From: Deltaproteobacteria bacterium
GTDB taxonomy: Bacteria; Myxococcota; Myxococcia; Myxococcales; Anaeromyxobacteraceae
Direction of reading: 5' to 3'
DNA: 64,000 nt
NCBI GenBank assembly: GCA_016214955.1
Contig: JACRMN010000012.1
Span: 124,001-188,000 of the forward strand
The notes under the pieces are model-generated. The model saw only the letters and a list, made by a program, of their open reading frames with translations. It was not told the DNA's origin and ran no database searches. Shown here in pieces: positions 1,573 through 46,341 of the stretch. A program made the translations under genes and the position numbers. Position 1 is the stretch's first letter, and every line of letters starts with the position of its first letter.

Positions 1573-1590
1573 GCCGGGAGGAGACCGACC

Positions 1591-2724: not shown

Positions 2725-2725
2725 G

Positions 2726-3496: not shown

Positions 3497-3498
3497 CC

Positions 3499-5990: not shown

Positions 5991-6001
5991 GGGGATCGAC
6001 A

Positions 6002-7303
6002 ATGAAGTGCTTCATCGGCATCGACCTGGGCTCGACCACCACCAAGGCGGTGGTCATGGACGAGAACGCCCAGGTGCTGGGGCGCGGCATCACCAACTCC
6101 CGCTCCAACTACGACACCGCCGCCGCGGTCTCCAAGCAGGAGGCGCTCATCGACGCGCGCTTCACGCTCTTCCGCCGCGGCCTCTCCGGCGTGCCGGCGC
6201 TGGCCGGCAAGGTGGACGGCTTCCTCGGCGACCTGGAGCGCAGCTTCCGCCACGTGCAGTTCCTGGAGCAGGTGGACGACCTCGAGGCCACCTGCACCAA
6301 GAACTCCAAGGGGCTGCGCTTCGCCGGCAGCGAGGCGGCGCTGGCCCGGACGGTGGCCGAGGTCTTCCGGCAGCTCCGCGAGGAGTCGGGGGCCCTCTTC
6401 GCCCCCGGCGCCCGGCGCAAGAGCGACTTCTTCCGCGACATCGCCGGCGCCCGCTTCGTCACCCTGGCCGAGCCGGTGTGCAAGGCAGAGGGGCTCTCCT
6501 TCGAGCTGCTCCTCAACGTCTACGACAAGTCGATCATCGAGGTGGAGAACCGCCCGCCCTCGGGCGCCATGGAGGGCAAGTTCCTGCGCGCCCTCGACAG
6601 GACCCTGGCCGGCGCGTCGCTCCCCAAGGACGACGTGGCCCGGCCGGTGAAGGCCGCCCTGGAGATCCCGCTGGAGGAGACCTACGTGGTGGGCACCGGC
6701 TACGGCCGGGTGCGGCTCCCGTTCCCCAAGGAGCACATCCGCTCCGAGATCCTCTGCCACGGCCTCGGCGCCCACATCATGTACGCCGACACCCGCACCG
6801 TGCTCGACATCGGCGGCCAGGACACCAAGGCCATCCAGGTGGACAAGGACGGCATCGTCGAGAACTTCCAGATGAACGACCGCTGCGCCGCCGGCACCGG
6901 GCGCTACCTGGGCTACGTGGCCGACGAGATGAAGATGGGCCTCCACGAGCTCGGCCCCATGGCCATGAAGGCCACCAAGACCCTGCGCATCAACTCCACC
7001 TGCACCGTCTTCGCCGGCGCCGAGCTGCGCGACAGGCTGGCGCTGGGCGACAAGCGCGAGGACATCCTGGCCGGCCTGCACCGGGCCATCATCCTGCGGG
7101 CCATGTCGATCATCTCCCGCTCCGGCGGCATCCGCGACCAGTTCACCTTCACCGGCGGCGTCGCCAAGAACGAGGCCGCGGTCAAGGAGCTGCGCAAGCT
7201 CATCAAGGAGAACTACGGCGACGTCACCATCAACATCAACCCGGATTCCATCTACACCGGCGCGCTGGGTGGCGCCGCCTTCGCCCTCCGGGCGGTGGCC
7301 TAG
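6002..7303 (+). CDS. bcrA: Benzoyl-CoA reductase, ATPase subunit A
   Basis: 433 residues of the BadF/BadG/BcrA/BcrD ASKHA ATPase family. BcrA and BcrD form the electron-activating half of the enzyme: they hydrolyse ATP, share a bridging [4Fe-4S] cluster and deliver low-potential electrons from ferredoxin to BcrBC. Seen are the phosphate-1 loop [12 protein letters not shown] at the N-terminus, [10 protein letters not shown] as phosphate-2, the cluster cysteines in [12 protein letters not shown] and [11 protein letters not shown], and the adenosine loop FTGGVAKN. The longer size compared with BcrD, with an inserted middle region, distinguishes A from D. The ATG at 6002 follows gggatcga. Confidence 0.94.
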
Positions 7304-7313
7304 GAGACACGCG

Positions 7314-8174
7314 ATGAGGAAGATCACCGCGGGCATCGACGTCGGGACCGGGTGCGTCAAGGCCGTGCTCTTCGAGCACGGCGAGGGCGCGCCCCGCTGG
7401 CTGGCACGCGCCTGCGAGCGCATCCGCCAGCGCGATCCCTACCAGCTGGCCGAGGAGGCCTACCTGGGCCTCCTGGCCGAGCAGAAGCTGGAGAGGAAGG
7501 ACGTGGCCTACGTGGCCACCACCGGCGACGGCGAGAACCTGACCTTCGCCACCGGCCACTTCTACTCCATGACCACCCACGCCCGCGGCGCCGTCTTCCT
7601 CGACGCCAGCACCCGGGCGGTGGTGGACGTGGGCGCCCTCCACGGCCGCGCCATGCGCACCGACGGCCGCGGCAAGGTGCTCAGCTACAAGATGACCAGC
7701 CAGTGCGCCTCGGGCTCGGGCCAGTTCCTCGAGAACATCGCCCGCTACCTGGGCATCGCCCAGGACGAGATCGGCGCGCTCTCCATCCAGGGCAAGAACC
7801 CGGAGAAGGTCTCCTCCATCTGCGCGGTGCTGGCCGAGACCGACGTCATCAACATGGTCTCCCGCGGCATCAGCGCCTCCAACATCCTCCGCGGCATCCA
7901 CGTCTCCATGGCCGGCCGCCTGGCGTCGCTGGTGAAGGGGGTGGCCGCCATGGAGGGCACGGTGCTGATGACCGGCGGCCTGGCGCTGGACCAGGGGCTG
8001 GTGGCCGCCACCCAGGAGGCGCTGGCCGAGACGCGCAGCCCGCTGGTGGTGCGCACCCACCCGGACGCCATCCACGCCGGCGCCATCGGCGCCGCCCTCT
8101 GGGGCGCCTTCCGGTACGACAAGCTGCAGGCGCGCGGACAGCTGGGCGGCCAGGCCGCCGGGCGGGCGGCATGA
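7314..8174 (+). CDS. bcrD: Benzoyl-CoA reductase, ATPase subunit D
   Basis: 286 residues, the second ASKHA ATPase subunit of class I benzoyl-CoA reductase. The phosphate loop is GIDVGTGCVKAVL, the cluster cysteines sit in SQCASGSGQFLE and SSICAVLAETD, and the adenosine motif is MTGGLALDQG. The start ATG at 7314 follows AGGAGA. The stop overlaps the ATG of the following acetyltransferase gene (ATGA), so that protein should be made in proportion to BcrD. No ferredoxin gene lies next to it, unlike the Thauera-type cluster as I remember it. Confidence 0.93.
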   Translation: MRKITAGIDVGTGCVKAVLFEHGEGAPRWLARACERIRQRDPYQLAEEAYLGLLAEQKLERKDVAYVATTGDGENLTFATGHFYSMTTHARGAVFLDASTRAVVDVGALHGRAMRTDGRGKVLSYKMTSQCASGSGQFLENIARYLGIAQDEIGALSIQGKNPEKVSSICAVLAETDVINMVSRGISASNILRGIHVSMAGRLASLVKGVAAMEGTVLMTGGLALDQGLVAATQEALAETRSPLVVRTHPDAIHAGAIGAALWGAFRYDKLQARGQLGGQAAGRAA

Positions 8175-9082
8175 GCGACACGAGCGCCATCCGGCCCCTG
8201 GCGGCCGCCGACCTCGCCCGCATCGTCGAGATCGACGGGGCCACCAGCGGCCGGCCCCGCCGCGCCTTCTACGAGAAGCGCTTCGCCGAGCTGGCCTCCG
8301 ACGCCGGCAGCACCCTGGCCCTGGCCGCCGAGCGCGGCGGGCGGGTGATCGGCTTCGCCTTCGCGCACCTGCTCGACGGCGAGTTCGGCGGATCGGCCAA
8401 GGTGGGCGTGCTCGACGCCGTGGGCGTGGCCCAGGAGTTCCGGGGCGGCGGCGTGGCCACCGCGCTCCAGGCCCACCTGGAGCGGGAGCTGCAGCGGCGC
8501 GGGGTGCAGGAGCTCCGCACCCAGGCCGACTGGACCGAGCACGGCCTGGCCTCCTTCTTCTCCTCCTCCGGCTTCGCGCTGGCCCCGCGCCTGGTGCTGG
8601 TCCGCGACGTGGAGGAGCCCACCCTCGACGAGTTCGACTGGACCGAGCTGCCGGTGCGCTCCATGACCGAGGGCGACCTCCCGGCCCTGGTCCGCATCGA
8701 CAAGAAGCACACCGGCCGCGATCGCAGCAGCTACTACCGCCGCAAGGCCCATGAGGCGCTGCGGCAGTCCGGGGTGCGGGTCTCCCTGGTGGCCGAGATC
8801 GACGCCCAGTTCGCCGGCTTCCTCATGGCGCGGGTGGACCTGGGCGACTTCGGGCGCACCGAGCCCACCGCCGTGCTCGACACCCTCGGCGTGGATCCGG
8901 CCTTCGCCGGCAAGCAGGTGGGCCGGGCGCTGCTGGAGCAGCTGCTCAACAACCTGCGGTCGCTGCGGGTGGAGCGGGTGCTCACCGAGGTGGAGTGGGA
9001 CCACTTCGACCTGCTCCGCTTCCTGCGGCGCGGCGGCTTCAAGCTCTCGCAGCGGCTCACCTTCCAGAAGAAGCTCGCCTAG
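8171..9082 (+). CDS. Tandem GNAT-domain N-acetyltransferase
   Basis: 303 residues with two GNAT folds in a row. Domain 1 (about 1-150) has the acetyl-CoA loop region VGVAQEFRGGGVATAL; domain 2 (about 155-303) has LGVDPAFAGKQVGRALL. Each is preceded by an IRPL/VRSM-type start strand. GNAT proteins transfer an acetyl group from acetyl-CoA to an amine, often a protein lysine. It is translationally coupled to bcrD (ATGA) and sits upstream of the benzoate-CoA ligase. From knowledge of Rhodopseudomonas palustris, aromatic acyl-CoA ligases are silenced by lysine acetylation. A role in acetylating the ligase is inference; the target is unknown. Confidence 0.85.
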   Translation: MSDTSAIRPLAAADLARIVEIDGATSGRPRRAFYEKRFAELASDAGSTLALAAERGGRVIGFAFAHLLDGEFGGSAKVGVLDAVGVAQEFRGGGVATALQAHLERELQRRGVQELRTQADWTEHGLASFFSSSGFALAPRLVLVRDVEEPTLDEFDWTELPVRSMTEGDLPALVRIDKKHTGRDRSSYYRRKAHEALRQSGVRVSLVAEIDAQFAGFLMARVDLGDFGRTEPTAVLDTLGVDPAFAGKQVGRALLEQLLNNLRSLRVERVLTEVEWDHFDLLRFLRRGGFKLSQRLTFQKKLA

Positions 9083-9093
9083 GAGGCCCTTTC

Positions 9094-9816
9094 ATGGCCG
9101 GAGGCCAGGGAGCGGGGCGGTTCGCCGGGAAGTGCGCCGTGGTCACGGGCGGCGCGCGCGGCATCGGCCGCGGCATCGCCGACCGGCTGGCGGCCGAGGG
9201 GGCCGAGGTCCACGTCTTCGACCGGGAAGCCGCCCCGCCCGGGGGCGGCGTCACCTTCCACGCCGTGGACGTGACCCGCGCCGCCTCGGTGCAGGAGGCG
9301 GTGGCGCGGCTGCCGCGGCCGCCGGCGCTGCTGGTCAACAACGCCGGCATCACCCGCGACAAGAGCCTGGTCAAGATGAGCGACGAGGACTGGGACGCGG
9401 TGCTGGCGGTCAACCTCAAGGGGGCCTTCCTGGTGCTGCGGGCCCTGGCCCCGGGGATGACGGCCGCCGGCTACGGCCGGGTGGTCAACATCACCTCCAT
9501 CAACGGCCAGCGGGGCAAGTTCGGCCAGGCCAACTACGCCGCCTCGAAGGCGGGCCTCATCGGCCTCACCAAGACCGCTGCCCGCGAGCTGGGCCCCAAG
9601 GGGGTGACGGTGAACGCCGTGGCCCCGGGAATGGTGCTCACCGAGATGGCGATGCAGCTCGCCCCCGAGTTCCGGCAGAAGGCGCTCGACGAGAGCCAGC
9701 TCAAGCGGCTGCCGGAGGTGGAGGACATCGCCGCTGCGGTACTCTTCCTGCTCTCCGACGGCGCCCGGATGATCACCGGCCAGGTGCTCCGCGTCGACGC
9801 CGGCCAGTACCTCTAG
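9094..9816 (+). CDS. Short-chain dehydrogenase/reductase (FabG-like)
   Basis: 240 residues of the classical SDR type. Seen are the cofactor loop GGARGIGRG, the NNAG motif, the catalytic serine in NITSINGQ, YAASK (Tyr-x3-Lys) and the C-terminal PGMVLTEM and VDAGQYL. It probably interconverts a 3-hydroxyacyl-CoA and a 3-oxoacyl-CoA with NAD(P). In this operon the most likely substrate is 3-hydroxypimelyl-CoA, the product of the oah enzyme, but a general fatty acyl reductase cannot be excluded. The start is at 9094 after AGGAGG; the benzoate-CoA ligase follows 15 bp downstream. Confidence 0.85.
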   Translation: MAGGQGAGRFAGKCAVVTGGARGIGRGIADRLAAEGAEVHVFDREAAPPGGGVTFHAVDVTRAASVQEAVARLPRPPALLVNNAGITRDKSLVKMSDEDWDAVLAVNLKGAFLVLRALAPGMTAAGYGRVVNITSINGQRGKFGQANYAASKAGLIGLTKTAARELGPKGVTVNAVAPGMVLTEMAMQLAPEFRQKALDESQLKRLPEVEDIAAAVLFLLSDGARMITGQVLRVDAGQYL

Positions 9817-9831
9817 CTCGCGAGGCTCGCC

Positions 9832-11436
9832 ATGCCCTTCGAGAACCTGACCGTGGACTCCTCGGCCCGACCGGCGAGGCTCCAGTTCGCCCCCGGCTTC
9901 AACGCGGCCACCGCCTTCGTCGACCGCCACCTCGGCGAGGGGCGCGGCGCCAAGGTGGCCATCCGCACCACCGGCGGCGCCGAGGTCACCTACGCCCAGC
10001 TCGCCGAGCAGGTGAACCGCGCCGGCAACGCGCTCGCCGGGCTGGGCGTGAAGCGCGGCGACCGGCTGCTGATGATGGTGAAGGACTGCCCCGAGTTCTT
10101 CTACCTGTTCTGGGGCGCCATCAAGGCGGGCATCGTCCCGGTGCCGCTCAACACCCTGCTGCGGGCCGCCGACTACCAGTACATGATCGAGGACTCGCAG
10201 TGCACGGCGGTGGCCTGGTCGCCGGAGTTCGCCGGCGAGGTGAAGCCGGCGCTGGCGGCGCTGCGCCGCCCGCCGCCGGTGCTCCTGCCCGTGCAGGGGG
10301 AGGGGCAGACGGTGCAGGCGGTCCTGGCGGCCGCCTCCCCGCAGCTCCGGGCGGTGCCGGCCGGCGCCACCTCGACCTGCTTCTGGCTCTACTCCTCCGG
10401 CTCCACCGGCCGGCCCAAGGGAGCGGTCCACCGCCACCGCGACATGGTGGCCACCAGCCAGCTCTACGGCAGCGACGTGCTGGGGGTGAAGGAGAGCGAC
10501 GTCTGCTTCTCGGCCGCCAAGCTCTTCTTCGCCTACGGCCTGGGCAACGGCATGACCTTCCCGCTCTGGGCCGGGGCCACGGCGGTGCTCCTCGACGCCC
10601 GGCCCGCGCCGCCCAACACCTTCGAGACCATCGAGAAGCTCCGCCCCACCCTCTACTTCGGCGTCCCCACCCTCTACGCCGCCCAGCTCCAGGCGCTGGA
10701 GAGCGCCAGGCCCGACCTCTCCTCGGTGAGGCTCTGCGTCTCGGCAGGCGAGGCGCTCCCGGCCGACATCTTCCGCCGCTGGAAGGAGCGCACCGGCCTC
10801 ACCATCCTCGACGGCATCGGCTCCACCGAGGCGCTCCACATCTTCATCTCCAACCGCGACGGCGACGTCCGGCCGGGCACCAGCGGCAAGGTGGTGCCGG
10901 GCTACGAGGCCCGGGTGGTGCTGGAGGGCGGGGCCCCGGCGCCCGCGGGCGAGGCCGGGCGGCTCCACGTCAAGGGGCCCTCCACCGCCGCCTTCTACTG
11001 GAACAACCCGGAGAAGACCGCCGCCACCATGCTGGGCGACGACTGGCTCGACACCGGCGACACCTACGTCTGCGACGCCGAGGGCTACTACCGGTACGAG
11101 GGGCGCTCCGACGACATGCTCAAGGTGGGCGGCATCTGGTGCTCGCCCATCGAGATCGAAGCCCGCCTGGTGGCCCACCCCAAGGTGCTGGAGGTGGCGG
11201 TCATCGGCGCACCCGACGCCGCCGGGTTGGTGAAGCCCGAGGCATATGTCGTCTTGCGCGAGGGGGTGCCGGCCTCTCACGCCCTGGCCGACGAGCTCAT
11301 GCTCCACTGCAAGAGCCACCTGGCGCCCTACAAGTTCCCGCGCCAGATCCACTTCGTGCCCGAGCTGCCCAAGACGGCCACCGGCAAGATCCAGCGCTTC
11401 CGGCTGCGGCAGCTGGCCGAGGCGCAGAAGGCGTAG
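9832..11436 (+). CDS. bclA: Benzoate-CoA ligase
   Basis: 534 residues of the ANL (AMP-forming) superfamily. It activates benzoate with ATP and CoA to benzoyl-CoA, the common intermediate of both the bcr and box routes encoded in this window. Motifs in order: the P-loop YSSGSTGRPKG (about 185-195), SAAKLFFAYGLGNG, which is characteristic of benzoate and 4-hydroxybenzoate ligases, GIGSTEALHIF, WLDTGDTY, and the C-terminal PKTATGKIQRF containing the catalytic lysine. That last stretch also fits the Px4GK pattern of lysine acetylation seen in R. palustris ligases. It is the last gene of the operon, followed by a strong hairpin. Confidence 0.92.
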   Translation: MPFENLTVDSSARPARLQFAPGFNAATAFVDRHLGEGRGAKVAIRTTGGAEVTYAQLAEQVNRAGNALAGLGVKRGDRLLMMVKDCPEFFYLFWGAIKAGIVPVPLNTLLRAADYQYMIEDSQCTAVAWSPEFAGEVKPALAALRRPPPVLLPVQGEGQTVQAVLAAASPQLRAVPAGATSTCFWLYSSGSTGRPKGAVHRHRDMVATSQLYGSDVLGVKESDVCFSAAKLFFAYGLGNGMTFPLWAGATAVLLDARPAPPNTFETIEKLRPTLYFGVPTLYAAQLQALESARPDLSSVRLCVSAGEALPADIFRRWKERTGLTILDGIGSTEALHIFISNRDGDVRPGTSGKVVPGYEARVVLEGGAPAPAGEAGRLHVKGPSTAAFYWNNPEKTAATMLGDDWLDTGDTYVCDAEGYYRYEGRSDDMLKVGGIWCSPIEIEARLVAHPKVLEVAVIGAPDAAGLVKPEAYVVLREGVPASHALADELMLHCKSHLAPYKFPRQIHFVPELPKTATGKIQRFRLRQLAEAQKA

Positions 11437-18771: not shown

Positions 18772-18789
18772 GCGGTACCTGTTTGCCTG
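18772..18789. promoter_or_regulatory. Weaker CYGGTAC-like motif at the boxC start
   Basis: GCGGTACCTGTTTGCCTG keeps GGTAC, the T-rich centre and CC of the other copies but has poor outer symmetry. It ends 2 bp before the boxC ATG and occupies the place where a ribosome-binding site should be; no such site is visible. It could be an auxiliary operator or a chance match. Confidence 0.35.
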
Positions 18790-18791
18790 TC

Positions 18792-20474
<1,683 letters not shown>

Positions 20475-20475: not shown

Positions 20476-21906
20476 ATGTCCGTCATCTCGCAGGAGCGCA
20501 TTCCCAACAACGTCGACCTGGCCAGCGACAAGCGGCTGCAGCGCGCCCTGGAGGCGTGGCAGCCCTCCTTCATCCAGTGGTGGAAGGACATGGGGCCCCA
20601 CGGCTTCCAGGAGGACCAGGTCTACCTGCGCACCGCCATCAGCGTGGAGCCGGACGGCTGGGCCCACTTCGACTACGTGAAGATGCCCGTGTACCGCTGG
20701 GGCATCTTCCTGGCCGACCAGGTCCCCGACCGGCGCATCGGCTTCGGCGACCTCATGGGCGAGCCGGTGTGGCAGCAGGTGCCGGGCGAGCACCGCAACG
20801 CCCTGCGCCGGCTCATCGTCACCCAGGGTGACACCGAGCCGGCCAGCGTCGAGCAGCAGCGCCTGCTGGGCCGCACCTGCCCCAGCCTCTACGACCTGCG
20901 CAACCTCTTCCAGGTGAACGTGGAGGAGGGGCGGCACCTCTGGGCCATGGTCTACCTGCTCCACAGCTACTTCGGCCGCGACGGGCGCGAGGAGGCCGAG
21001 GAGATGCTCCACCGGCGCAGCGGCGACCAGAACAAGCCGCGCATCCTCGGCGCCTTCAACGAGCCCTGCACCGACTGGCTCTCCTTCTTCATGTTCACCT
21101 ACTTCACCGACAGGGACGGCAAGTACCAGCTGCTGGCCCTGGCCGAGAGCGCCTTCGACCCGCTCTCGCGCACCACCCGGTTCATGCTCACCGAGGAGGC
21201 CCACCACATGTTCGTGGGCGAGACCGGGGTGATGCGGGTGGTGGAGCGCACCGCCCAGATGATGAAGGAGCAGAAGAAGGACCACCCCGACGACCTGCGC
21301 AAGCTCGGCCTCGTCGACCTGCCCACCGTCCAGCGCTACCTCAACCTCTGGTACTCGGTGAGCCTGGACCTCTTCGGCGGCGAGATCTCCTCCAACGCCG
21401 CCTCCTCCTTCGCCGCCGGCCTCAAGGGGCGCGCCCAGGAGGACCGCTACGAGGACCACAGGGCCCTCACCGGCACCTACGCCGTCCCCCGGTTCCAGAA
21501 CGGCGCCCTGGTGACGGAGGACGTCCCCATGCGGAACGCCATGAACGAGGTGGTGCGCGACGCCTACATCGAGGACTGCCAGCGCGGCGTGGACAAGTGG
21601 AACCGGGCCATCGCCGCCCACGGCATCCCCTTCGAGCTCAGGCTCCCCAGCCGCCGCTTCCACCGGGCGGTGGGCGTGCACGCCGGCCAGCACTTCGACC
21701 CGGAGGGCAACCCGGTCTCGGCCGAGGCCTGGCAGGCGAGCCAGGACGCCTGGCTGCCCTCCGCCGCCGACAGGGCCCACGTGCAGGGGCTGATGCGCGA
21801 GCCGGTGATGGAGCCGGGCAAGATGGCCAGCTGGATCGCCGCCCCGAAGCAGGGCATCAAGGGCCGGCCGGTGGACTTCGAGTACGTCCGGCCGCGGCAG
21901 GCCTAG
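20476..21906 (+). CDS. boxB: Benzoyl-CoA 2,3-epoxidase, oxygenase subunit BoxB
   Basis: 476 residues, the usual BoxB size. This class I diiron oxygenase uses O2 and two electrons to make 2,3-epoxybenzoyl-CoA. The diiron ligand pattern is visible as a helix with EEGRHLWAMVYLL (E-x2-H) and a second with TEEAHHMFVGE (E-x2-H), plus a nearby aspartate/glutamate helix (FNEPCTDWLSFF). MPVYRWGIFLADQVPDRRIGFG is typical of the family. The known electron donor is the flavoprotein BoxA, whose gene is absent here. The ATG at 20476 is served by GGAGGAGG inside the end of boxC. Confidence 0.94.
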   Translation: MSVISQERIPNNVDLASDKRLQRALEAWQPSFIQWWKDMGPHGFQEDQVYLRTAISVEPDGWAHFDYVKMPVYRWGIFLADQVPDRRIGFGDLMGEPVWQQVPGEHRNALRRLIVTQGDTEPASVEQQRLLGRTCPSLYDLRNLFQVNVEEGRHLWAMVYLLHSYFGRDGREEAEEMLHRRSGDQNKPRILGAFNEPCTDWLSFFMFTYFTDRDGKYQLLALAESAFDPLSRTTRFMLTEEAHHMFVGETGVMRVVERTAQMMKEQKKDHPDDLRKLGLVDLPTVQRYLNLWYSVSLDLFGGEISSNAASSFAAGLKGRAQEDRYEDHRALTGTYAVPRFQNGALVTEDVPMRNAMNEVVRDAYIEDCQRGVDKWNRAIAAHGIPFELRLPSRRFHRAVGVHAGQHFDPEGNPVSAEAWQASQDAWLPSAADRAHVQGLMREPVMEPGKMASWIAAPKQGIKGRPVDFEYVRPRQA

Positions 21907-21918: not shown

Positions 21919-23460
<1,542 letters not shown>

Positions 23461-23914: not shown

Positions 23915-25327
23915 TCAACCCAGCTTCCGCTCCGCCGCGTTCCAGTTGCGGACCAGGTTGTCGATGAGGGCCGGGCTGTACATGCAGTAGGCCTGCTCGC
24001 GGCTGTAGGTGGCCATGTAGCGGCGGAAGAGATCCAGGGGCTCGGCCCCGAGCCGCAGGGCGCGCCGGTTGGCCACCAGGCTGGTGACGCCGGCCGAGAG
24101 CAGCTCGGCCGCGGAGGCGGCGATGGCCGCCTCCATCGCTGCCTCGCCCTCCACCACCTCGTCGCAGAGCAGCCGCCCCTCGGGGCTCTCGGCGGGGAAC
24201 TGGCGGTTGAAGAAGATGCCCTGGCGCGTGGGCCGCTCGCCCACGAAGCGCGGCAGCCGCAGGTTGGCGAGGCCGGGGATGATGCCCTCCTTGCGCGCCG
24301 GCAGGTTGAAGTAGGCGCCGCGCTCGGCGATGACGCGGTCCATGATGAGCAGCATCTGGCAGTGGCCGCCGATGGCGAAGGAGTCCACCGCGGCGATGAA
24401 GGGCTTCTCGATGCGGTCGTCCACGTCGTGGTGGACGCTGGGGGGCGGGGCGCCGGGGCGGCACAGGCCGCGGTAGATCTTGGTGAGCGGCGCGGTCTCG
24501 CGCACCAGCATGAACTCGATGAGCGAGATCCTGCCGTGGTAGAGCTGCGTCAGGTTGATGCCCGAGCCGAAGACGCGGCGGCCGGCGTACTTCTGCTTCA
24601 CCTGCGGCGCACCGCGCAGCACCACCACCCGGACGGCGTCATCGAGCAGCGCCAGGTCCACCAGCGTCTCCAGCGCCTCCTGGTACTCGTCGTCCTCGGC
24701 GTTGAGCCAGGCCTGGTGGTGGAAGGTGATGCGCCCCTCCTGCCCCAGGCGCGCCAGGGTCATCGAGGGCAGCTCGGCGCGGCCGCTGCGCCGGAAGTCG
24801 GCCAGGCGGGCCTGGGCGGCGGCGGTGGGCTGGCCCATGGCGTGGAGCAGGTGCAGCCCGCGCTCCGGGTCGGCGAAGCAGTGGGCCAGGAAGATGCCCT
24901 GGTCGATCTGCAGGCCGTCCTGGTGCATCTGCGGCTGCTCCCGCTCGCGGGCCACCTCGGCGCGGGTGGGCACCAGGCCCGGGTAGGCGGCGGCGGCGGC
25001 GTAGGCCAGCTCGGGCAGCCGCAGGAGCCGGGTGCGGTCGGCGGTGAGCCGGTCGTAGACGGCGGCGGCGTGCCGGGAGAGGAAGCCCTCGCGCGCTGCC
25101 CGGTCGCCGGTGAGCAGCAGCGCCGCGGCCGCCTGCTCGGGGTCGCTGCGCCGGGGCCGGACCGGGAGGCGGCGGCGGGCCTCGGCCCGGGCCGCGAGCC
25201 AGCCCTGCAGCGCCGGCCACTCGGCGGCCACCCCGGCGCCGGAAGGCGGCGGGGCGGCGAGCCGCTCGGCCTCGGCGCGAGGCAGGCCGGCGGCCTGCAG
25301 GATCTCGGGGGCGTTCTCCGTGGACAT
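23915..25327 (-). CDS. DpgC-like cofactor-independent dioxygenase (crotonase fold)
   Basis: 470 residues: a helical N-terminal domain of about 190 residues followed by a crotonase core, the architecture of DpgC, (3,5-dihydroxyphenyl)acetyl-CoA 1,2-dioxygenase. From memory of DpgC, the matching landmarks are [78 protein letters not shown] and [15 protein letters not shown]. DpgC uses O2 without metal or cofactor to turn an arylacetyl-CoA into an arylglyoxylate and free CoA. The GGHCQ glutamine is probably the residue that in DpgC lies near the thioester. The ATG at 25327 follows GAGGAGA, 11 bp after the upstream oxidoreductase gene, so both are co-transcribed. The substrate is inferred, not shown. 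Confidence 0.82.
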
Positions 25328-25338
25328 GCGATCTCCTC

Positions 25339-28300
25339 TCAGGATGCGGCGCGGGAGGCGGCGCCGCCGCGGAGCTCCCGCAGGAGCTCCTCGGCGCGGG
25401 CGCGGGCCCGCTCTGCGCTGGTGAGCTTCAGCTCCTCGTAGCCGCGGATCTCCTCGGGCAGCGAGAGCAGCTCCGCCACCCGGCCCTGGGTGGCGGGCTC
25501 GAGGTGCGGCAGCGCCCCGGCCACCAGCCCCGCGTACCAGCCCGGCAGCTCCCGCTCCAGGCGGCGGACGGCGGCGCCGCCGAAGGGGTCGAGCGCGGTG
25601 CCGCGCAGCCCGCGCAGCGCCACCAGGAGCCGCAGCAGGGGCTCGATCCAGCGCCCCAGCGAGAGCTTCCGCCTCATGCCCAGCGCCCGGAGCACCGGCG
25701 GGTGGAGCTGGTAGCGGATGCGGGTGCGTCCGGTGAAGGTCTCGCCGGCCCGCTGCGCCATGCCCGCCGCCAGGTGGAGCCGGGCCACCTCGTACTCGTC
25801 CTTGTAGGCGAGGAGCTTGTGCAGGCCGCGGATGACGGCGCGGGTGACGCGGGGCTCGGCCAGCGGCCCGAGCCGCTCCCGCTCGGCGACCGCCACCTCC
25901 AGCACCGCGGCCACGTACCGGCGCGCCAGCGCCAGGTCCTGGAAGCGGACCAGCTCGGCGGCGCGGAAGGCGAGGAGGCGTCGGCTCTCGGGGTCGAGCC
26001 CGGCGGCGCCGGCCAGCAGCGCGCGGTAGCCGTCGGCGTCGCCGCCCAGGGTGGCCGCCTCCCGCTCCACCGGATCGGCCACCGCCGGCGGCGCCGGCGC
26101 CAGCCAGGCGGCCACGCGCGCCGGGTCGTGCACGGCGACGCGCCCGAGCCGGAAGGCCCGCAGGTTCTGCTCCACGGCGGTGCCGTCGATCTGGATGGCG
26201 CCCGTGAGGGCGCGGGAGGAGAGGGGCAGGAAGCCGGCCTGGAAGGCGACCCCCACCGCGATGACGTTGGCGGCCATGGGGTCGCCGAGCAGCTCCTCGG
26301 CGAGGCGGCGGGCCTCGACGCGCACGGTGCGGGCCGGGTCGCAGACCGCGGCGATGGCCTCGTCGAGCCGGGCGGCGCCGGGGTCGAGGTGAACGTCGCG
26401 GATCATCTCGCCGCTGGGAAGCAGGGTGGAGTGGATCACCGCCGCGGTGCGGTCGGGCCGGCAGCGCGCCAGGTGCTGCCTGTCGGCGCCGGCCATGAGG
26501 TCGAGGGCCAGGAGCAGGTCGGCCTGGCCGAGGCCGATGCGGGCGGCGGGCGGCGCCTGGCCGGCAGGCGCCACCACCAGGCTGGAGAGCACCGAGCCCC
26601 ACTTCTGGGCGGCGCCTGTCTGGTCGAAGGAGAGCACCTCGCGGCCGTCGAGGAAGGCGGCCCAGCAGAGCAGGGCGTTGACGGTGACCACGCCGGTGCC
26701 GCCCACTCCGGGGAGCAGCGCCCGCCAGGGGCCGGTGAGCGGCGGCAGGGCCGGCTCCGGGAGCGCCACGTCGTCGAGCGGCGGCAGCGGCGGGTGCCGG
26801 CGGGCGCCGCCCTCCACCTCCACGGTGACGAAGGCCGGGCAGTCGCCGGTGAGGCAGAGCCGGTCCTGGGTGCAGCTCGCCTGGTGGATGCGGGTCTTCT
26901 CGCCCAGCTCGGTCTCCACCTTGTGGAGCGACATGCAGTTGGAGGAGGCGCCGCAGTGGCCGCAGTTCTCGCACACCGCCTCGTTGACGACCACGAAGCT
27001 GTGCGAGGGCTCGCGCAGCGCCCGCTTCTCCTGCCGGCGCCGCTCGTTGGCGCACTCGCCGTCGTAGAGGAAGACGGTGACGCCGTCCACCGCCTCCAGC
27101 TCCCGCAGCACCGGCTCGATCTCGTCGCGGCCGTGGACCCGGGCCACCGCCGGCCACTCGACGCCGCGGTAGGCCGAGGGGTCGCGGGCCACCACCGCGA
27201 TGCGCTTCACGCCCTCGAGCGCCAGCAGCTTCACCAGGGTGGGCACGTCCTTCTGCCCCACCGGCTTCTGGGCGCCGGTGTTGGCCACCGCGCCGTTGTA
27301 GAGGATGCGGAAGGTCATGCGCGCGCCGGCCGCCACCGCGAAGCGCACGTTGAGGTAGCCGGAGTGGAAGAGGCCGCCGTCGCCCTGGTTCTGGATGATG
27401 TGTTGCCTGTCGGTGAACGGGGCGAGGCCGATCCAGGCCAGCCCCTCGCCGCCCAGCGGGAAGGTGGCGTCGGCGCGCCGCTCCGGCTGCTCCATCAGCG
27501 TGGCGAAGACGTGGCAGCCGGGAGCGCTCCAGGCCACCTGGCCGGGCAGCACGCGCAGCGAGACGTTGTGGGGGCAGCCGGAGCAGTAGTTGGGGGCGCG
27601 GCGCTGCAGGGCCGCCGCCGGCCGCTCGGCCGCCTGGCGCAGCTCCGCCAGGCGCCGCTCGATCGGCTCGCGCCGCTCCGGGAGGAGCGGCAGGAGGTGC
27701 GGCGCCAGCACCTGGGCCAGCAGGTCGGCGTCCATGCCGCCGAAGTCGGGGAGCATGGGCGCCCCGCGCTCGTCCCGCTTGCCCAGCACCTCGGGCCTGG
27801 CCGGCAGGGCGTAGAGGGCGTCGCGCAGCGCCGCCTCCAGGAAGCCGCGCTTCTCCTCCACGACGATGGCGCGCGGCAGGCCGCCCAGCGCCTCGGCGGC
27901 GAAGGCCCGGTCGAGGGGGTGGATCATCCCGAAGCGCACCAGGCGGACGCCGGCCCGGCCGAGCGCCGCGTCGTCGAGCCCCAGGTCGGAGAGGGCCTGG
28001 CGCAGGTCGGTGAAGCTCTTGCCGGCGGCCACCAGCGCCAGCCGGTCGCCCGGCCCCGAGAGCTCCACCCGGTCGAGGCGGTTGTGGCGGGCGTAGGCCA
28101 CCGCCGCCGGCAGCCGCTCGGCGTGCAGCAGCCGCTCGGTCTCCACCGTCTCCACCGGGAAGAAGCGGTGGTACTGGCGCTTCTCGAAGGGCCGTCCACC
28201 CACCGTGAAGTCGGGGAGGGAGATGGCCGGGCGGGCCGGGTCCACCTCCAGCGTCTGGCCGCCGTCGCAGAGCTGGTTCACCAGCTTCAACGCCACCCAC

Positions 28301-28911
28301 AGGCCCGAGTAGCGGGACAGGGCCGCGGCGTGGAGCCCCAGCGTCAGGAACTCGGCCACCGTGCCCGGGTAGAGCACCGGCATGCCGGCGTGGACGAAGT
28401 AGCTCTCCTGGGCGAAGGGCATGGTGGAGCTCTTCGCCTCGTGGTCCTCGCCCGAGAGCACCACCACCGCGCCGTGGCGGCTCACGCCGGCGAAGTTGCC
28501 GTGGCGGATGGCGTCGCCGGCCCTGTCGAGCCCCGGCCCCTTGCCGTACCAGAAGCCCACCACCCCGTCGCAGCGCTGGTGCGGGTAGCGGTCGAGGAGC
28601 TGGGTGCCCATGAGCGCGGTGGCCGCCTGCTCCTCGTTGCCGGCGGGCCGGTGCACGATGCCGTGGGCCCCGTGGAGCGCCCGGGTGCGGGCCAGCGCCA
28701 GGTCGTAGCCGCCGAGCGGCGAGCCCGGGTAGCCGGAGATGAAGGTGCCGGTGCGCAGCCCCGCGGCCCTGTCGCGGCGAGCCTGGTCGTAGGCCAGGCG
28801 GACGAGCGCCTGCACCCCGGTCAGGTAGACCGGGCCGCGCTCCAGCAGGTACCGATCGTCGAGGCTGGGGGCCCGGGCGGGGGCTCCGGGCTGCGCCGCT
28901 GCGTCGGGCAA
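25339..28911 (-). CDS. Fused indolepyruvate:ferredoxin oxidoreductase family enzyme
   Basis: 1190 residues, a single-chain 2-oxoacid:ferredoxin oxidoreductase of the long proteobacterial type. It should oxidatively decarboxylate an aryl- or branched-chain 2-oxoacid with CoA and thiamine diphosphate, yielding an acyl-CoA and reduced ferredoxin. In order: an N-terminal TPP/pyrimidine domain ([14 protein letters not shown]), the TPP pyrophosphate motif [16 protein letters not shown] (about 505-520), a cysteine cluster [13 protein letters not shown] and [12 protein letters not shown] (about 640-685) for [4Fe-4S] centres, and a C-terminal gamma-type domain starting near [16 protein letters not shown]. 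The start is a TTG at 28911, supported by GGAGGT 7 nt upstream. Coupling to the DpgC-like gene suggests an arylpyruvate substrate. Confidence 0.85.
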
Positions 28912-28998: not shown

Positions 28999-29334
28999 TC
29001 ACTTCACGACCAGGTCGTTCCGCACGCTCGAGACGCCCTCCACCGCCGCGGCCGCCTTGCCGGCCCGCTGCTTGCTCTCCGCGCCGTCGACGAAGCCGCT
29101 GAGCTGGACCACGTCCTTGTAGGTCTCCACGCTGATCTGCGACGACTTCAACGACGGCTCGTTCAGGATGGCGGCCTTCACCCGCGTGGTGATGACCGAG
29201 CTGTCGAGGAACTGGCCCGCGCTCTCGGGGGCCTTGCTCGGCGGGCTGGGCGCGCTGGGGGTGCAGCCCACCCAGGCGGTGCCGGAGAGGCCGAGCCACG
29301 CGGCTGCGACCATCGTCGATGTGAGCCTGCTCAT
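28999..29334 (-). CDS. BON-domain protein, exported
   Basis: 111 residues. The N-terminus is a signal sequence ending at GTAWVGC, a possible but atypical lipobox. After a proline-rich linker, residues about 43-110 form one BON domain: SSVITTRVKAAILNEPSLKSSQISVETYKDVVQLSGFV and GVSSVRNDLVVK. BON domains bind membranes or other envelope proteins and occur in osmotic-stress proteins such as OsmY. It is a short gene with an ATG at 29334. A 27-codon membrane peptide gene lies 93 bp upstream on the same strand. Confidence 0.85.
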   Translation of the reverse strand: MSRLTSTMVAAAWLGLSGTAWVGCTPSAPSPPSKAPESAGQFLDSSVITTRVKAAILNEPSLKSSQISVETYKDVVQLSGFVDGAESKQRAGKAAAAVEGVSSVRNDLVVK

Positions 29335-29682: not shown

Positions 29683-30492
29683 CTACTTCTTGGTCCGCCG
29701 CGGCCTGAGGACCACCGCCGCCGCGCGATCCAGCACCCGGAAGGCGAAGGACTCGGCCAGGAAGAGGTGGACCTCCCCCTCGGCGTGGTCCGCGTAGCCC
29801 ACCGACATGTCCTGGCCCACGCAGAGCTGGAAGTCGCCGCCGCGGTGCGAGAGCAGCACCGCGCCGTCGAGGGTCGGTGCCAGCACCATGGGGCCGTCCA
29901 GGAAGTGCTCGACCCGCTCGCGGATGGGGTGGCCGTCCTCCGCGGCCTGGGCCAGGCCGGCGTACGCGTCCGGGCCCAGCGCCAGCGCGTAGGGGCCGTT
30001 GACACCGGCCTGCCGGAGGGTCTCCACGGCCCGGCCCACGACCGACGGGTAGTCGGCGTAGTCCTCGGGGATGGCGATGGGCGGGTGCGGGCAGCTGGGG
30101 ATGATGCCCTCGAAGCCGCCGGCCTTGAAGCCGTCGAAGATGACCGAGTCCTCGGCGTGGGCCGCCTTCTCCGCGGCCTCGACCACCATCGGGAGATCCA
30201 GCACCGCCCCTCGCGAGGCGTTGTCGAGCTCCATCATCGGCACCCGGAAGGGCACCCGGATCTCGATGAGGGGCAGCACCCCGCGCAGACCCCACGGCAC
30301 GCCGAGCCCGCCGTCGCTGCGGAGGGCCAGCTGGCCGGTGTTGACGGCGGCGTGCTCCCAGCCGTGGGGACCGTCCAGGTCCGCCAGCTTGCGCCCCGCC
30401 AGGTTGAGGCGGAGCACCCGCCGGGCCTCGTCGTCGATCTGCTTCCAGGCCTCGGGGGTGATGGGCGCGAGGTCGCGCTTCAGGAGGTCCAC
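29683..30492 (-). CDS. Encapsulin shell protein (family 1)
   Basis: 269 residues of the HK97-fold family 1 encapsulin (linocin M18-like) group. The protein self-assembles into a nanocompartment. Family features are the opening MDLLKRDLAPITPEAW, ARRVLRLNLAGRKLADLDGPHGW, VPFRVPMMELDNASRG and the C-terminal SFAFRVLDRAAAVVL. The start is a GTG at 30492, 2 bp after the stop of the ferritin-like gene, with AAGGGG upstream. The upstream neighbour encodes a ferritin-like cargo with a targeting tail, so the compartment should store iron or protect against oxidative stress. Confidence 0.93.
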   Translation of the reverse strand: MDLLKRDLAPITPEAWKQIDDEARRVLRLNLAGRKLADLDGPHGWEHAAVNTGQLALRSDGGLGVPWGLRGVLPLIEIRVPFRVPMMELDNASRGAVLDLPMVVEAAEKAAHAEDSVIFDGFKAGGFEGIIPSCPHPPIAIPEDYADYPSVVGRAVETLRQAGVNGPYALALGPDAYAGLAQAAEDGHPIRERVEHFLDGPMVLAPTLDGAVLLSHRGGDFQLCVGQDMSVGYADHAEGEVHLFLAESFAFRVLDRAAAVVLRPRRTKK

Positions 30493-30494
30493 GG

Positions 30495-30854
30495 TCAGTT
30501 CCCCTTCATGCTGCCGATGCCGAGCGTGGGCACCGGGCCCGGGGGGCCGGCGGTGGCCGCCCCCTTCTCGACCTCGACGATGGGCGCCGCGGTGAAGAGG
30601 TAGGTCTTCATCATCACGTCGAAGTGGGAGCAGTGGCGGCGGAGCCACTCCATGAGCATGCTGGCGTGCTCGATCTCCTCGTCCCTGTTGTGCAGCATCA
30701 CCGCCCGGAGCTGCGGATCCGAGGCAGCGTCGGCCCGCTGCCGGTAGGCGTCGATGGCCTCGAGCTCCTCCCTCAGGCTGGTGAGCGCGCGGTGCAGGTC
30801 CCTCGTGTCGCCGGACAGCGCCTGCGGCTCCTCGTGAAGCGTGTCGTTCGCCAT
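30495..30854 (-). CDS. Encapsulated ferritin-like protein (EncFtn cargo)
   Basis: 119 residues. Two helices carry the ferroxidase pattern of EncFtn: EELEAIDAYRQRA and NRDEEIEHASMLMEWLRR (E-x2-H). As a half-ferritin it must dimerise to make its iron site. The C-terminus has a flexible Gly/Pro/Ala linker ending in PTLGIGSMKGN, which matches the encapsulin cargo-loading peptide (consensus near LGIGSLKG). In the known system EncFtn oxidises Fe(II) inside the shell, which stores the mineral. The ATG at 30854 has a GGAGG about 13 nt upstream. The gene is directly before, and probably co-translated with, the shell gene. Confidence 0.92.
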   Translation of the reverse strand: MANDTLHEEPQALSGDTRDLHRALTSLREELEAIDAYRQRADAASDPQLRAVMLHNRDEEIEHASMLMEWLRRHCSHFDVMMKTYLFTAAPIVEVEKGAATAGPPGPVPTLGIGSMKGN

Positions 30855-43368: not shown

Positions 43369-44652
43369 TCAAGGCTCGTAGCCGGGGTAGATCCGGCTGC
43401 AGCAGTCCGGGCAGACCCCGTGGGTGAAAATGGGGCCGGAGCGCCGGGCGAGGTACTCCTCGATCCGCGTCCAGTGGCCCTCGGGATCGCGGACCCGCTT
43501 GCAGGCCGAGCAGATGGGGAGGAGCCCGCGCAGCGCGCGCACGTCCTCCAGCGCCGCCCGGAGCCCCTTCTCCATCTCCTCCCGCGCGCGCCGCTGGTCC
43601 GCCTCGGCCCGGGCCGCCCGGGACAGGGCCCGCGCGCTGCCCACCGCCACCCCAGCCGCCCGGGCGAGCGTGCGCACCAGGTCGAGGTAGCGCTCCCGGT
43701 AGCGCGGGAAGGCCAGACCGTCCAGGGCCGCCAGTCCGAGCGTCTCCCGCTCGTCGGCGACGCGAAAGAGGACGCCCCGGCCCGACGCGGTGAGGGCCGC
43801 GTCGCTCCGCAGCGCCCGCATCTCCCGCTCCAGGTCCTCGCACGGCTGGGCGCGGGGAGGGTACACCCACGCCGGCGCGACCGCCTGGCCGTCGACGGCG
43901 CAGTACAGGATCCGGCTCGGGGCGAGGAGCGCCTGGGCCAGCTCCACCAGGCGGCCCACCACCTCGGACTCGTCGTGGCCGCCCGCCAGGCGAGTGACGA
44001 AGTCGAAGATGGCGGCGTTGTCGGCCACGCGCCGCCGGAGCGCCGCGAGGTCGCCGCAGCCGGGCAGCGTGGCGCGGGCCCGCCGCACCGCCACCTGGAG
44101 CTGCAGCTGGTAGTGGTCGAGCCCCACCGGCGCGATCTCCCAGGGGAGCCCCAGGTACTCGGCCATCTCCTGCAGGTGGGTGGGGGCGGCGTCGTCGACG
44201 CCAGTGTCGAGGAGCAGGAGCCGCTTCGACCCCTCGCGGAACAGCTCCGCCGCGGTCTTCCTGTCGAGGCCCCAGCCGTCGAGCGTCTGTCGCCAGCGGG
44301 CCAGCCAGCCGGGCGTGAGCAGGTGGGCGCCCTCGCGGACCCACTGCTCCACCAGCCCGCGGTTGGCGAGCAGCTCGAAGCAGGTGGCGGCGCGGACCTC
44401 GAGCAGGGTGCGATCGAGCGAGGGCGGCAGCACCACGCCGAGCAGGCAGCCGCCGCCCAGGAGGCAGCAGGCGCCGTGCTCCTCCACGCGGGCCGCCACC
44501 GCGCGGCACAGCTCGTCCCGCTGCGCTGGCGTCGGGGCGCACACGGCCCGGACGGTGGAGACGCGGACCCCCTCGAGGCCCGGCGCGGCGAGGGCCGCGT
44601 CGGTCTCGCGCCGGAGGCTCTCGCAGACGAGCATGGTCAGGTCACCCGGCAT
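43369..44652 (-). CDS. DUF1638-like domain fused to a signalling module
   Basis: 427 residues. The N-terminal about 200 residues resemble DUF1638, a family that I recall as accompanying corrinoid methyltransferases; visible parts are LGGGCLLGVVLPPS and the typical LLTPGWLARW. The middle (about 205-345) is GAF-like, and a short coiled coil leads to a C-terminal zinc-ribbon-like segment with LPICSACKRVRDPEGHWT and GVCPDCCSRIYPGYEP, a tail common in bacterial signalling proteins. No kinase or DNA-binding domain is seen. It overlaps the UroD-like gene by 11 bp. A role in reading out a corrinoid-bound signal is inference. An ATG at 44634 is another possible start. Confidence 0.65.
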   Translation of the reverse strand: MPGDLTMLVCESLRRETDAALAAPGLEGVRVSTVRAVCAPTPAQRDELCRAVAARVEEHGACCLLGGGCLLGVVLPPSLDRTLLEVRAATCFELLANRGLVEQWVREGAHLLTPGWLARWRQTLDGWGLDRKTAAELFREGSKRLLLLDTGVDDAAPTHLQEMAEYLGLPWEIAPVGLDHYQLQLQVAVRRARATLPGCGDLAALRRRVADNAAIFDFVTRLAGGHDESEVVGRLVELAQALLAPSRILYCAVDGQAVAPAWVYPPRAQPCEDLEREMRALRSDAALTASGRGVLFRVADERETLGLAALDGLAFPRYRERYLDLVRTLARAAGVAVGSARALSRAARAEADQRRAREEMEKGLRAALEDVRALRGLLPICSACKRVRDPEGHWTRIEEYLARRSGPIFTHGVCPDCCSRIYPGYEP

Positions 44653-45694
44653 CCGCCCACCTCAGCGGGTAGGTCCCCCAGCGGCGCACCGCCTCGGCCA
44701 CGGCCTGGAGCACCTCCAGGGGGACCTGGAAGGGCACCTCGCCGTGGTGCTCGGAGAGCACGAACCCGCCACCCGGCCCGCCGGCGGCGAGGGCTGCGCG
44801 CACGGCCTGCTCGGCGTCGTCCGGCGTCCAGTGGCGCATCTCCAGGCCGTTGAGGTTCCCCATCACCGCGGCGCGCCCCCGGAGGATCCGCTTCGACTGG
44901 GAGAGGTCGTCGGCCGCGGAGACGCCGACGCACGCCACACCGGCACCCGCCAGGTCGGCGGCGATGGGCAGGCACGGCGCCGAGGCGGTGGAGACGGCGA
45001 CCGGGCCGCGTACGGCGGCGACGGTCCGGCGGAGCGCCGGGAGCCCCAGCTCGCGGTAGCGGTCCGCGGGAACCAGGAGCGGTGAGGCCAGCGGCTCGGC
45101 CAGGGCGACCGCGCTGGCGCCGGCGGCCAGCAGCGCGTTGGCCCACGACGCGCAGAAGGCCTCGTTGACCCGGAGCAGCCGCTCGGCCAGGGGCCGGTGC
45201 TGGTGGAGGAGCTCGAACCAGCGATCCAGGCCCACCTGGATCGCCGGCAGCGAGAAGGGCCCGATGCCGCCCGCCAGCACGGGGACCTCCGCGCCCACCG
45301 CCGCCCGCAGCGCCGCGGTCGCCTCCAGGCTGCGGCGCAGGGTCGGGGAGGTGGTGGGGTCCGGCGGGCGGAGCCTCTCGATGTCGGCCGCGGAGCGCAG
45401 CGGCGGCTCGCCGGTGTTGGGCGGGCCGTCCTCGTGGACGACCACCTCGCCGCCGAAGGGCTCCGCCTCCGCCGCGGCACAGAGGAAGCCGCTGACCGCG
45501 TCGTGGCCCAGAAGCTCCCGGAGCCGGAGCTGCCCCTGCACGACCAGCTCGGCGCTCCCGAGGTAGGCGGTGAGCGGCACGCCCAGCAGCCGCGCGCCGT
45601 GCATGTTGGCGGGGAGGAAGAAGGGGACGCGGTCGCCCTCCCGGTGGCCGAGGGCCGCCGCCACGCGGGCCGCGGGCGTGAGCGCGGCGCTCAT
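44642..45694 (-). CDS. Uroporphyrinogen decarboxylase-like / corrinoid methyltransferase-like protein
   Basis: 350 residues of the UroD/MtaA fold. The N-terminal RVAAALGHREGDRVPFFLP and the middle MGNLNGLEMRHWTPDDAEQAVRAAL match this group. Members transfer methyl groups from a methylcorrinoid protein to a thiol through a zinc site. At the positions where MtaA/MtbA have H-x-C and a later Cys-Gly, this protein has STASAPC (about 236) and SEHHGEVP (about 313), so the standard zinc ligands seem altered. That could mean another metal site, another substrate, or a sensing role. Coupled by ATGA to the corrinoid-protein gene upstream. Confidence 0.78.
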   Translation of the reverse strand: MSAALTPAARVAAALGHREGDRVPFFLPANMHGARLLGVPLTAYLGSAELVVQGQLRLRELLGHDAVSGFLCAAAEAEPFGGEVVVHEDGPPNTGEPPLRSAADIERLRPPDPTTSPTLRRSLEATAALRAAVGAEVPVLAGGIGPFSLPAIQVGLDRWFELLHQHRPLAERLLRVNEAFCASWANALLAAGASAVALAEPLASPLLVPADRYRELGLPALRRTVAAVRGPVAVSTASAPCLPIAADLAGAGVACVGVSAADDLSQSKRILRGRAAVMGNLNGLEMRHWTPDDAEQAVRAALAAGGPGGGFVLSEHHGEVPFQVPLEVLQAVAEAVRRWGTYPLRWADAG

Positions 45695-46341
45695 CCGAGC
45701 TCCTCTGCCCAGGCCTCCACCAGGTCGAGCGCGTCGCCGGCGGTTGCCCCCATGGCGTCGGCGCCCACCTCCCGCCAGAGGTCGCGGTCGATGCGGAAGG
45801 GCGCCCCGCCGACCAGCACGCGCACCGGCGCCGGCGCCGCCTGGAGCAACCCGACGAGATCCTTCACCTGGAGGGCGGCCCGGAGCATCAGGGTGGAGAC
45901 GAGCAGCACGCGGATGCCACCTTCGGACACCCGCGCCGCCAGGGCCCTGGCCGTCATGCCCTGGCCCAGGTCCTGGAGCGGCCAGCCGGCGGCGCGCAAG
46001 GTGGCCGAGACGATGCGCTTGCCGAGCAGGTGGTGGTCCTCGAGGGTGGCGATGGCCAGCCCGGCCCGCACCGCGCGGCGCCGGCCGGTGCCGGGGGTGA
46101 GCGCGTCGGCGAGGTCCTCGCAGATGCGCCCCGCCATGTAGACCTGCGACAGCGCCAGGAGCCCTCGCTCCCAGTCGGTCCCGATCCGCTCCAGCGCCGG
46201 AACCAGGACGCGGTCCACGACGAGGGCCCCGTCGCGGGCCCTCGCCTGCTCCAGGGCCGCCGCCGCGGCCGGGCGGTCCGCGTCGAGGAGCGCCCGCTCC
46301 AGGCGCACCGACAGGTCCTCCCGGTCTCCGTCGTCGATCAC
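45691..46341 (-). CDS. Cobalamin (corrinoid)-binding protein
   Basis: 216 residues. An N-terminal helical cap (about 1-85) precedes a B12-binding Rossmann domain with the base-off/His-on motif: D102-x-H104-x2-G107 in LEDHHLLGK, S149-x-L151 in LLVSTLM, and GG at 178-179 in VLVGGAPF. This is the make-up of MtaC/MtbC-type corrinoid proteins. It is first in an operon with the UroD-like protein and the DUF1638 fusion. A methyltransferase that would load the corrinoid is not in the window. The GTG at 46341 is the chosen start; the ribosome-binding site is weak. Confidence 0.85.
   Translation of the reverse strand: MIDDGDREDLSVRLERALLDADRPAAAAALEQARARDGALVVDRVLVPALERIGTDWERGLLALSQVYMAGRICEDLADALTPGTGRRRAVRAGLAIATLEDHHLLGKRIVSATLRAAGWPLQDLGQGMTARALAARVSEGGIRVLLVSTLMLRAALQVKDLVGLLQAAPAPVRVLVGGAPFRIDRDLWREVGADAMGATAGDALDLVEAWAEELG

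Follow-up and report, generated by a model that had tools for sequence, protein, structure and literature searches.

A DpgC-like dioxygenase gene paired with a fused indolepyruvate:ferredoxin oxidoreductase gene beside box genes in Anaeromyxobacteraceae: a candidate O2-dependent route into benzoyl-CoA degradation

We analyzed a stretch of 64,000 nucleotides (the window) from a Deltaproteobacteria bacterium of the Anaeromyxobacteraceae (assembly GCA_016214955.1, contig JACRMN010000012.1, positions 124,001 to 188,000), in which a gene for a relative of the dioxygenase DpgC lies directly behind a gene for a fused indolepyruvate:ferredoxin oxidoreductase (IOR). We propose, with a probability of roughly 0.57, that this ior-dpgC pair encodes an O2-dependent chain-shortening module that feeds benzoyl-CoA pathways; the substrate, the use of O2, the product, the IOR step, and the link to the box and bcr genes are all inferred. 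The DpgC-like enzyme would act on an arylacetyl-CoA, with phenylacetyl-CoA and 4-hydroxyphenylacetyl-CoA as the likeliest substrates: it would remove the alpha proton, add O2 without a cofactor, and release CoA together with an arylglyoxylate. The fused IOR would convert the arylglyoxylate and CoA into an aroyl-CoA, CO2, and reduced ferredoxin, and the aroyl-CoA would then enter the box pathway (with O2) or the bcr pathway (without O2). The starting thioester could be supplied from aromatic amino acids, by way of IorAB pairs and possibly of the fused IOR too, or from arylacetates, by way of PaaK-like ligases encoded on the same contig.

Results

The dpgC-like gene (23915-25327, minus strand) starts with ATG and encodes a 470-residue homologue of the cofactor-free dioxygenase, as judged by phmmer, NCBIfam, and fold comparisons. 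An operon-like gap of 11 bp in the sequence (25328-25338, minus strand) separates its start from the stop of the fused IOR gene (25339-28911, minus strand; 1190 residues, start codon uncertain). A preliminary description of this DNA had named both enzymes and the 11-bp spacing; the spacing is exact, with the IOR reading frame ending at 25339, and both identities are borne out. The DpgC-like protein matched DpgC (PDB 2np9) over residues 36-460 with a phmmer E value of 4e-95 and is about 45% identical to it, and ordinary crotonases matched the C-terminal part alone at 2.5e-12 or weaker. Its score against the NCBIfam DpgC equivalog NF042432 was 406.9 bits, below the cut-off of 530; by sequence, the protein is best described as a DpgC relative and not as a certified DpgC. 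The fused IOR scored 1204.6 bits against PRK13030 (NF009589; cut-off 816), contains POR and DUF6537 domains, and had no match in the PDB by sequence search. The ratios of nonsynonymous to synonymous substitution (NG86) were ∼0.6 for dpgC, 0.56 for ior, and 0.54 for boxB; these values are distorted by the extreme GC content and would indicate only that the two genes are under constraint comparable to that on boxB.

An AlphaFold2 model of the DpgC-like protein (predicted local distance difference test score 89, predicted template-modeling score 0.90) was compared with known structures. Foldseek returned DpgC as the nearest fold by far (template-modeling score 0.85), and the structure-based comparison placed DpgC 4ylh closest, with Z 52.9 and a root-mean-square deviation of 2.0 over 420 residues, versus Z 24.2 for the next crotonase, which rules out mere general crotonase similarity. 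The predicted structure follows the DpgC architecture over its whole length and has the N-terminal helical domain. Residues E211, I257, R276, G320, G321, Q324, A344, and I349 correspond to DpgC E189, I235, R254, G295, G296, Q299, A319, and I324, so that the loss of active-site residues, which the preliminary description had named as one sign that it was wrong, was not seen at any of the eight positions checked. We take E189, I235, R254, G296, Q299, A319, and I324 to be important in the active site of DpgC; PDB titles name the DpgC mutants R254K, A319C, and V425T.

The residue alignment, in DpgC numbering, took in 53 DpgA-linked DpgC sequences, three PglA-like sequences, and others. The window protein departs from DpgC at K238 (Thr), F412 (Tyr), Q415 (Glu), V425 (Leu), V429 (Leu), and position 433, where a small residue is replaced by Trp. 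These six states are common to the PglA-like, Chloroflexota, and Tistrella proteins, with single Chloroflexota exceptions at 415 and 425, and are not found in the actinobacterial DpgA-linked proteins. Phe412 is present even in both divergent DpgA-linked proteins (L090 and L091), and Tyr412 in 18/18 proteins without DpgA. At the residues that separate PglA from DpgC, the window protein is PglA-like at 18 positions, among them an agreeing set of six (238 and the C-terminal 412, 415, 425, 429, and 433), and DpgC-like at 12; as these totals are mixed, no substrate was read from the overall counts.

In phylogenetic trees, the Myxococcota clade formed one group (support 100/100), which four Chloroflexota proteins joined (96/96). 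Actinobacterial PglA and DpgC formed a separate group (100/99 and 100/100 across the two trees, the second giving 100/100); the trees are read as unrooted, with long branches for the Tistrella and L091 sequences. Acquisition from a glycopeptide cluster was rejected on the trees and gene contexts, from which the window protein most likely has another origin. DpgC relatives occurred in four of 195 Myxococcota genomes, namely three of this genus and G072, and fused IORs likewise in four, three of this genus and one other; the two genes were adjacent in 3/3 members of the genus and in no other genome of the phylum sample. The second genome (locus L021, metagenome-assembled genome WY1.bin30) has the same pair with a 13-bp gap and 68% protein identity, and its boxB and boxC, two genes removed from the pair, run convergently to it on the other strand. 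In the third (G001), the contig ends within dpgC, and 33 bp separate its N-terminal part from the IOR match (G001:C56:6-209 and 243-3773). The most plausible history for the three genomes is that both genes were gained jointly and have stayed together, which counts as a single event and not as three independent ones. Chance estimates for the gene associations assumed independent genomes, an assumption broken by this single co-gain and by the close relationship of the Chloroflexota loci L144 and L145. boxB is widespread in the phylum (above its cut-off in 45/195 genomes); the recurrence of the ior-dpgC-box association in a second, diverged genome is more than chance. The relative in G072 (L091, G072:C158) lies in a myxococcal nonribosomal peptide synthetase (NRPS) cluster that also has DpgA-like and crotonase-like genes and may make a dihydroxyphenylglycine (DPG)-containing peptide outside Actinomycetota.

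A DpgC relative was also present in 11/400 Chloroflexota genomes. At four of these loci (L143, L144, L145, and L151, of which L144 and L145 are close relatives) a PaaK-like gene, that is, one of the phenylacetate-CoA ligase family with every score below the PaaK equivalog cut-off, lies within 4 kb of the dpgC-like gene, with a 4-bp overlap between the two in L151; the PaaK-like gene is in each case the sole such gene of its genome at E 1e-100. L149 and L150 have another acyl-CoA ligase gene directly upstream, followed in one of them by a thiamine pyrophosphate (TPP)-dependent decarboxylase-type gene. A pyruvate dehydrogenase (PDH)-type E1 alpha gene is nearby at L142, L143, L144, and L145; the E1 alpha genes of L142 (9721-10644), L144 (5095-6063), and L145 (10781-11704) have no adjacent E1 beta and may be orphans or have partners encoded at other loci. 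In L148 a 4HBT-type thioesterase gene directly follows, and three loci have no telling neighbor. Other neighbors encode a DsbA-like protein (L146, also L143) and an ABATE/CGNR regulator (L147). The PaaK-like ligases and 2-oxo-acid TPP enzymes fit an arylacetyl-CoA substrate and an arylglyoxylate product; at the loci with other neighbors (L146, L147, L152, and L148) the family may serve a different role. Distant PaaA-like genes, far below the cut-off, were found in most of the 11 genomes.

Scans of genome contigs and plasmids for relatives returned mainly DpgC of DPG/NRPS clusters, with DpgA alongside DpgC at 53 loci. Three Streptomyces plasmids carry, in the order of the published pgl operon, genes for NRPS, a DpgC-like protein, E1 alpha, E1 beta, a hydrolase, MbtH, and an aminotransferase, and from this order we infer that their dpgC-like genes are PglA. 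In the pgl operon, PglB/C were proposed to convert phenylpyruvate to phenylacetyl-CoA, followed by oxidation by the 'Phg dioxygenase PglA' (PMC7089894). In venemycin synthesis, the DpgC homologue VemC and the thiamine diphosphate-dependent decarboxylase VemE belong to a proposed route to 3,5-dihydroxybenzoate (PMC5132015). The coupling of a DpgC-like enzyme to a 2-oxo-acid TPP enzyme therefore has biosynthetic precedents, as has phenylacetyl-CoA as a likely substrate, and the statement in the preliminary description that DpgC is otherwise known from glycopeptide synthesis is too narrow: PglA (phenylglycine) and VemC/VemE (venemycin) went unnamed there. On plasmid pTM3 of Tistrella mobilis (L089), a divergent DpgC-like gene (8866-10077) stands right after acyl-CoA-dehydrogenase-like and AMP-ligase-like genes, and its product has Ala at both 296 and 297.

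We searched the genome for routes that would supply or compete for the proposed substrate. No match to paaA (TIGR02156) was found in this genome (G000) or in the two others of the genus (G001 and G002). No Pad subunit model exceeded its cut-off in this genome, the best being PadE (143.8 of 300) and PadG (290.9 of 700); these sole PadE/PadG-like subunits, scoring below half of the cut-offs, belong to a PorCDAB-type operon that has no molybdenum enzyme. Among 10 molybdopterin oxidoreductase matches, none shares an operon with a 2-oxo-acid:ferredoxin oxidoreductase (OFOR; these were located through the POR domain), but PadB itself has no model, so its absence is unproven. A candidate Pad-like arrangement at L111, where ∼9 kb with unrelated genes separate an OFOR from a TtrA-like gene, was rejected together with the PorCDAB-type operon. 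The genome has two further IorAB-type pairs (L120 and L122); the pair of L120 lies on the same contig as the window with a PaaK-like ligase and an ATP-binding cassette transporter, and a second PaaK-like gene lies just beyond. Arylpyruvate oxidation could therefore proceed independently of the fused IOR, and arylacetyl-CoA could be made by the separate IorAB and PaaK-like enzymes, the only recognized sink for it being the DpgC-like enzyme. In Aromatoleum, phenylpyruvate derived from phenylalanine is converted by IOR to phenylacetyl-CoA, which then enters the Pad route without O2 and the Paa route with O2 (PMC9765128).

The benzoyl-CoA genes of the window lie on the plus strand. The box set searched consisted of boxC (18783-20474; TIGR03222, 749.4 bits, cut-off 712.3), boxB for benzoyl-CoA 2,3-epoxidase (20476-21906; TIGR03225, 790.6 bits, cut-off 499.1), and a boxD-type gene for 3,4-dehydroadipyl-CoA semialdehyde dehydrogenase (21919-23460; PRK11903, 675.1 bits, cut-off 444), all above cut-off. 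Genes of the lower benzoyl-CoA pathway, had (529-1572; TIGR03201), oah (1591-2724; TIGR03200), and dch (2726-3496; TIGR03189), precede bcrC, bcrB, bcrA, and bcrD for ATP-dependent benzoyl-CoA reductase (3499-8174; TIGR02263, TIGR02260, TIGR02259, and TIGR02261), again all above cut-off. A benzoate-CoA ligase family gene follows (9832-11436; TIGR02262, 621.7 bits, cut-off 375.3). About 25 kb past the window (L127, G000:C26:208001-219000, at 4328-8738) there is a second 2-hydroxyacyl-CoA dehydratase/benzoyl-CoA-reductase-like D-component gene, accompanied by genes for an acyl-CoA ligase and two activase-like proteins. A short distance upstream of the ior-dpgC pair are an encapsulin shell gene (Linocin_M18) and, before it, an encapsulated-ferritin (EncFtn-like) gene (29683-30854, minus strand), with a small BON-domain gene (28999-29313) in between. 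At 43369-46341 (minus strand), a URO-D family gene stands between a DUF1638 gene and a small, putatively corrinoid-binding gene, an arrangement reminiscent of corrinoid methyltransferase sets.

Discussion

The closest characterized relative of the window protein is DpgC, the (3,5-dihydroxyphenyl)acetyl-CoA 1,2-dioxygenase of Streptomyces toyocaensis (PDB 2np9, 2pg8, and 4ylh), which it resembles in fold, architecture, and residues E189, R254, Q299, A319, and I324; the chemistry of an arylacetyl-CoA with O2 is likely common to both. It differs in its score below the equivalog cut-off, in lacking a DpgA/HpgT context, in standing on a separate branch, and in having Thr, Tyr, and Leu for K238, F412, and V425 and His for Gly297. 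The pristinamycin I system for L-phenylglycine (PglA/PglB/PglC) also sets a DpgC-like protein, with phenylacetyl-CoA as the proposed substrate, beside a 2-oxo-acid dehydrogenase, and PglA and the window protein have T238, Y241, Y412, L425, and W433 in common. In Pgl, however, the dehydrogenase is a PDH-type E1 in contrast to an OFOR, and its step precedes that of PglA; an aminotransferase and an NRPS take over the product, and the operon, which includes the thioesterase PglD, is biosynthetic and on a separate branch; beside the window gene, fused IOR stands in the place of PglB/PglC (PDH-type E1 alpha/beta), of which none was found there. VemC/VemE/VemF of venemycin and the Ken homologues of kendomycin follow a DpgC homologue with a TPP enzyme that acts on an arylglyoxylate to give an aryl carboxylate one carbon shorter, but they use a non-oxidative decarboxylase and an aldehyde dehydrogenase and yield free 3,5-dihydroxybenzoate for a polyketide synthase, without a CoA ester or ferredoxin.

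Two routes for phenylacetyl-CoA are established: Paa, in which the ring is epoxidized aerobically, and Pad, in which the side chain is oxidized anaerobically. PadBCD with PadEFGHI would match the proposed module in the overall conversion of phenylacetyl-CoA to benzoyl-CoA, in the phenylglyoxylate intermediate, and in the OFOR-type second step, but the first Pad step is carried out by a molybdenum enzyme without O2, and its OFOR has four subunits and an NADH module, versus the fused IOR. The PaaABCDE epoxidase is likewise an O2-dependent fate of phenylacetyl-CoA; it epoxidizes the ring and does not make benzoyl-CoA, and paaA is absent from this genus. The route from arylacetyl-CoA through arylglyoxylate to benzoyl-CoA that the preliminary description put forward is supported in part, by the fold, the residues, the operon with an OFOR, the neighbors of the family, the missing paaA, and the lack of Pad subunit scores above cut-off in this genome; it is qualified by the score of 406.9 of 530 and by the separate branch. 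That description had also assigned the IOR to arylpyruvate and, possibly, to the second decarboxylation; the arylpyruvate step has no need of the fused IOR, given the two further pairs, and the fused enzyme more likely serves to turn arylglyoxylate into aroyl-CoA.

Several observations weigh against the proposed module. The boxCBD genes are near the pair, as the preliminary description said, but they are convergent with it on the other strand (boxD ends at 23460 and dpgC-like at 23915) and are therefore neighbors, not members of its operon. The His at position 297, specific to this genus, lies beside the oxyanion hole. We found no precedent for phenylglyoxylate as a substrate of the fused-IOR family, which is named for indolepyruvate. 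OFORs are often O2-sensitive; the fused type was also found in the aerobe Caulobacter, used as a search control, and therefore the enzyme may work in air. Genome completeness is 95.6%. Since the Pad negative comes from the PadE/PadG models, without one for PadB, a Pad route may still be present. 4-Hydroxyphenylpyruvate dioxygenase (HPPD) is present, slightly below its cut-off, so tyrosine, and likewise phenylalanine if hydroxylated, may also be degraded via homogentisate.

In one alternative, the fused IOR makes just arylacetyl-CoA from an arylpyruvate, and the arylglyoxylate formed by the DpgC-like enzyme leaves the cell, is converted to an arylglycine by transamination, or undergoes decarboxylation elsewhere; the benzoyl-CoA neighborhood would then be coincidental. 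This is the order of steps in the pgl operon, from phenylpyruvate dehydrogenase through PglA to the aminotransferase, and the IOR families carry arylpyruvate-based names. We nevertheless consider it unlikely: in this genus the pair has no gene for an aminotransferase, an NRPS, or a decarboxylase beside it, two other IorAB-type pairs are available for arylpyruvates, and box adjoins the pair in two diverged genomes.

The nature of the DpgC-like protein itself might also differ from that proposed. Crotonases are diverse, and the sub-threshold score and the replacement of Gly297 by His would suit a protein that is no longer a dioxygenase and serves as an ordinary hydratase, hydrolase, or isomerase in the benzoyl-CoA or beta-oxidation pathways; the complete DpgC architecture with its helical domain (Z 52.9 versus 24.2), the ∼45% identity, the retention of E189, R254, Q299, A319, and I324, and the PaaK-like and 2-oxo-acid enzymes around the family make such a function quite improbable. 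The same identity, with E189, R254, and Q299 retained, could instead point to a true DpgC for 3,5-dihydroxyphenylacetyl-CoA, left over or transferred from an antibiotic cluster. That origin is very hard to reconcile with the position outside the actinobacterial PglA and DpgC group (100/99 and 100/100), the score below the DpgC cut-off, and the lack of K238, F412, and V425, the residues of the dihydroxyphenylacetyl-CoA type; moreover, DpgA (a type III polyketide synthase) and HpgT are absent from the window and from L021, and no NRPS is nearby, versus DpgA at 53 DpgC loci.

The enzyme families of the proposed chain-shortening module are known, and its novelty would lie in their combination for catabolism; the open-licence papers that we searched held no catabolic DpgC, no such catabolic module, and no mention of the Myxococcota/Chloroflexota clade. 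More broadly, we give even odds to a third, O2-dependent, ring-sparing catabolic fate of phenylacetyl-CoA-type thioesters, in which a cofactor-free dioxygenase and a 2-oxo-acid:CoA oxidoreductase turn arylacetyl-CoA into aroyl-CoA and thereby give Myxococcota a path from arylacetates and aromatic amino acids into box/bcr. A wider branch in Chloroflexota would employ PaaK-like ligases and other TPP enzymes, and DpgC and PglA would be specialized biosynthetic relatives. If this is true, the Pad conversion would be achieved with O2 by a cofactor-free dioxygenase, as a third route beside Paa and Pad, and would suit organisms that have both box and bcr under changing O2. DpgC chemistry would thereby move from antibiotic clusters into catabolism, and a family of Chloroflexota 'enoyl-CoA hydratases' would gain a function.

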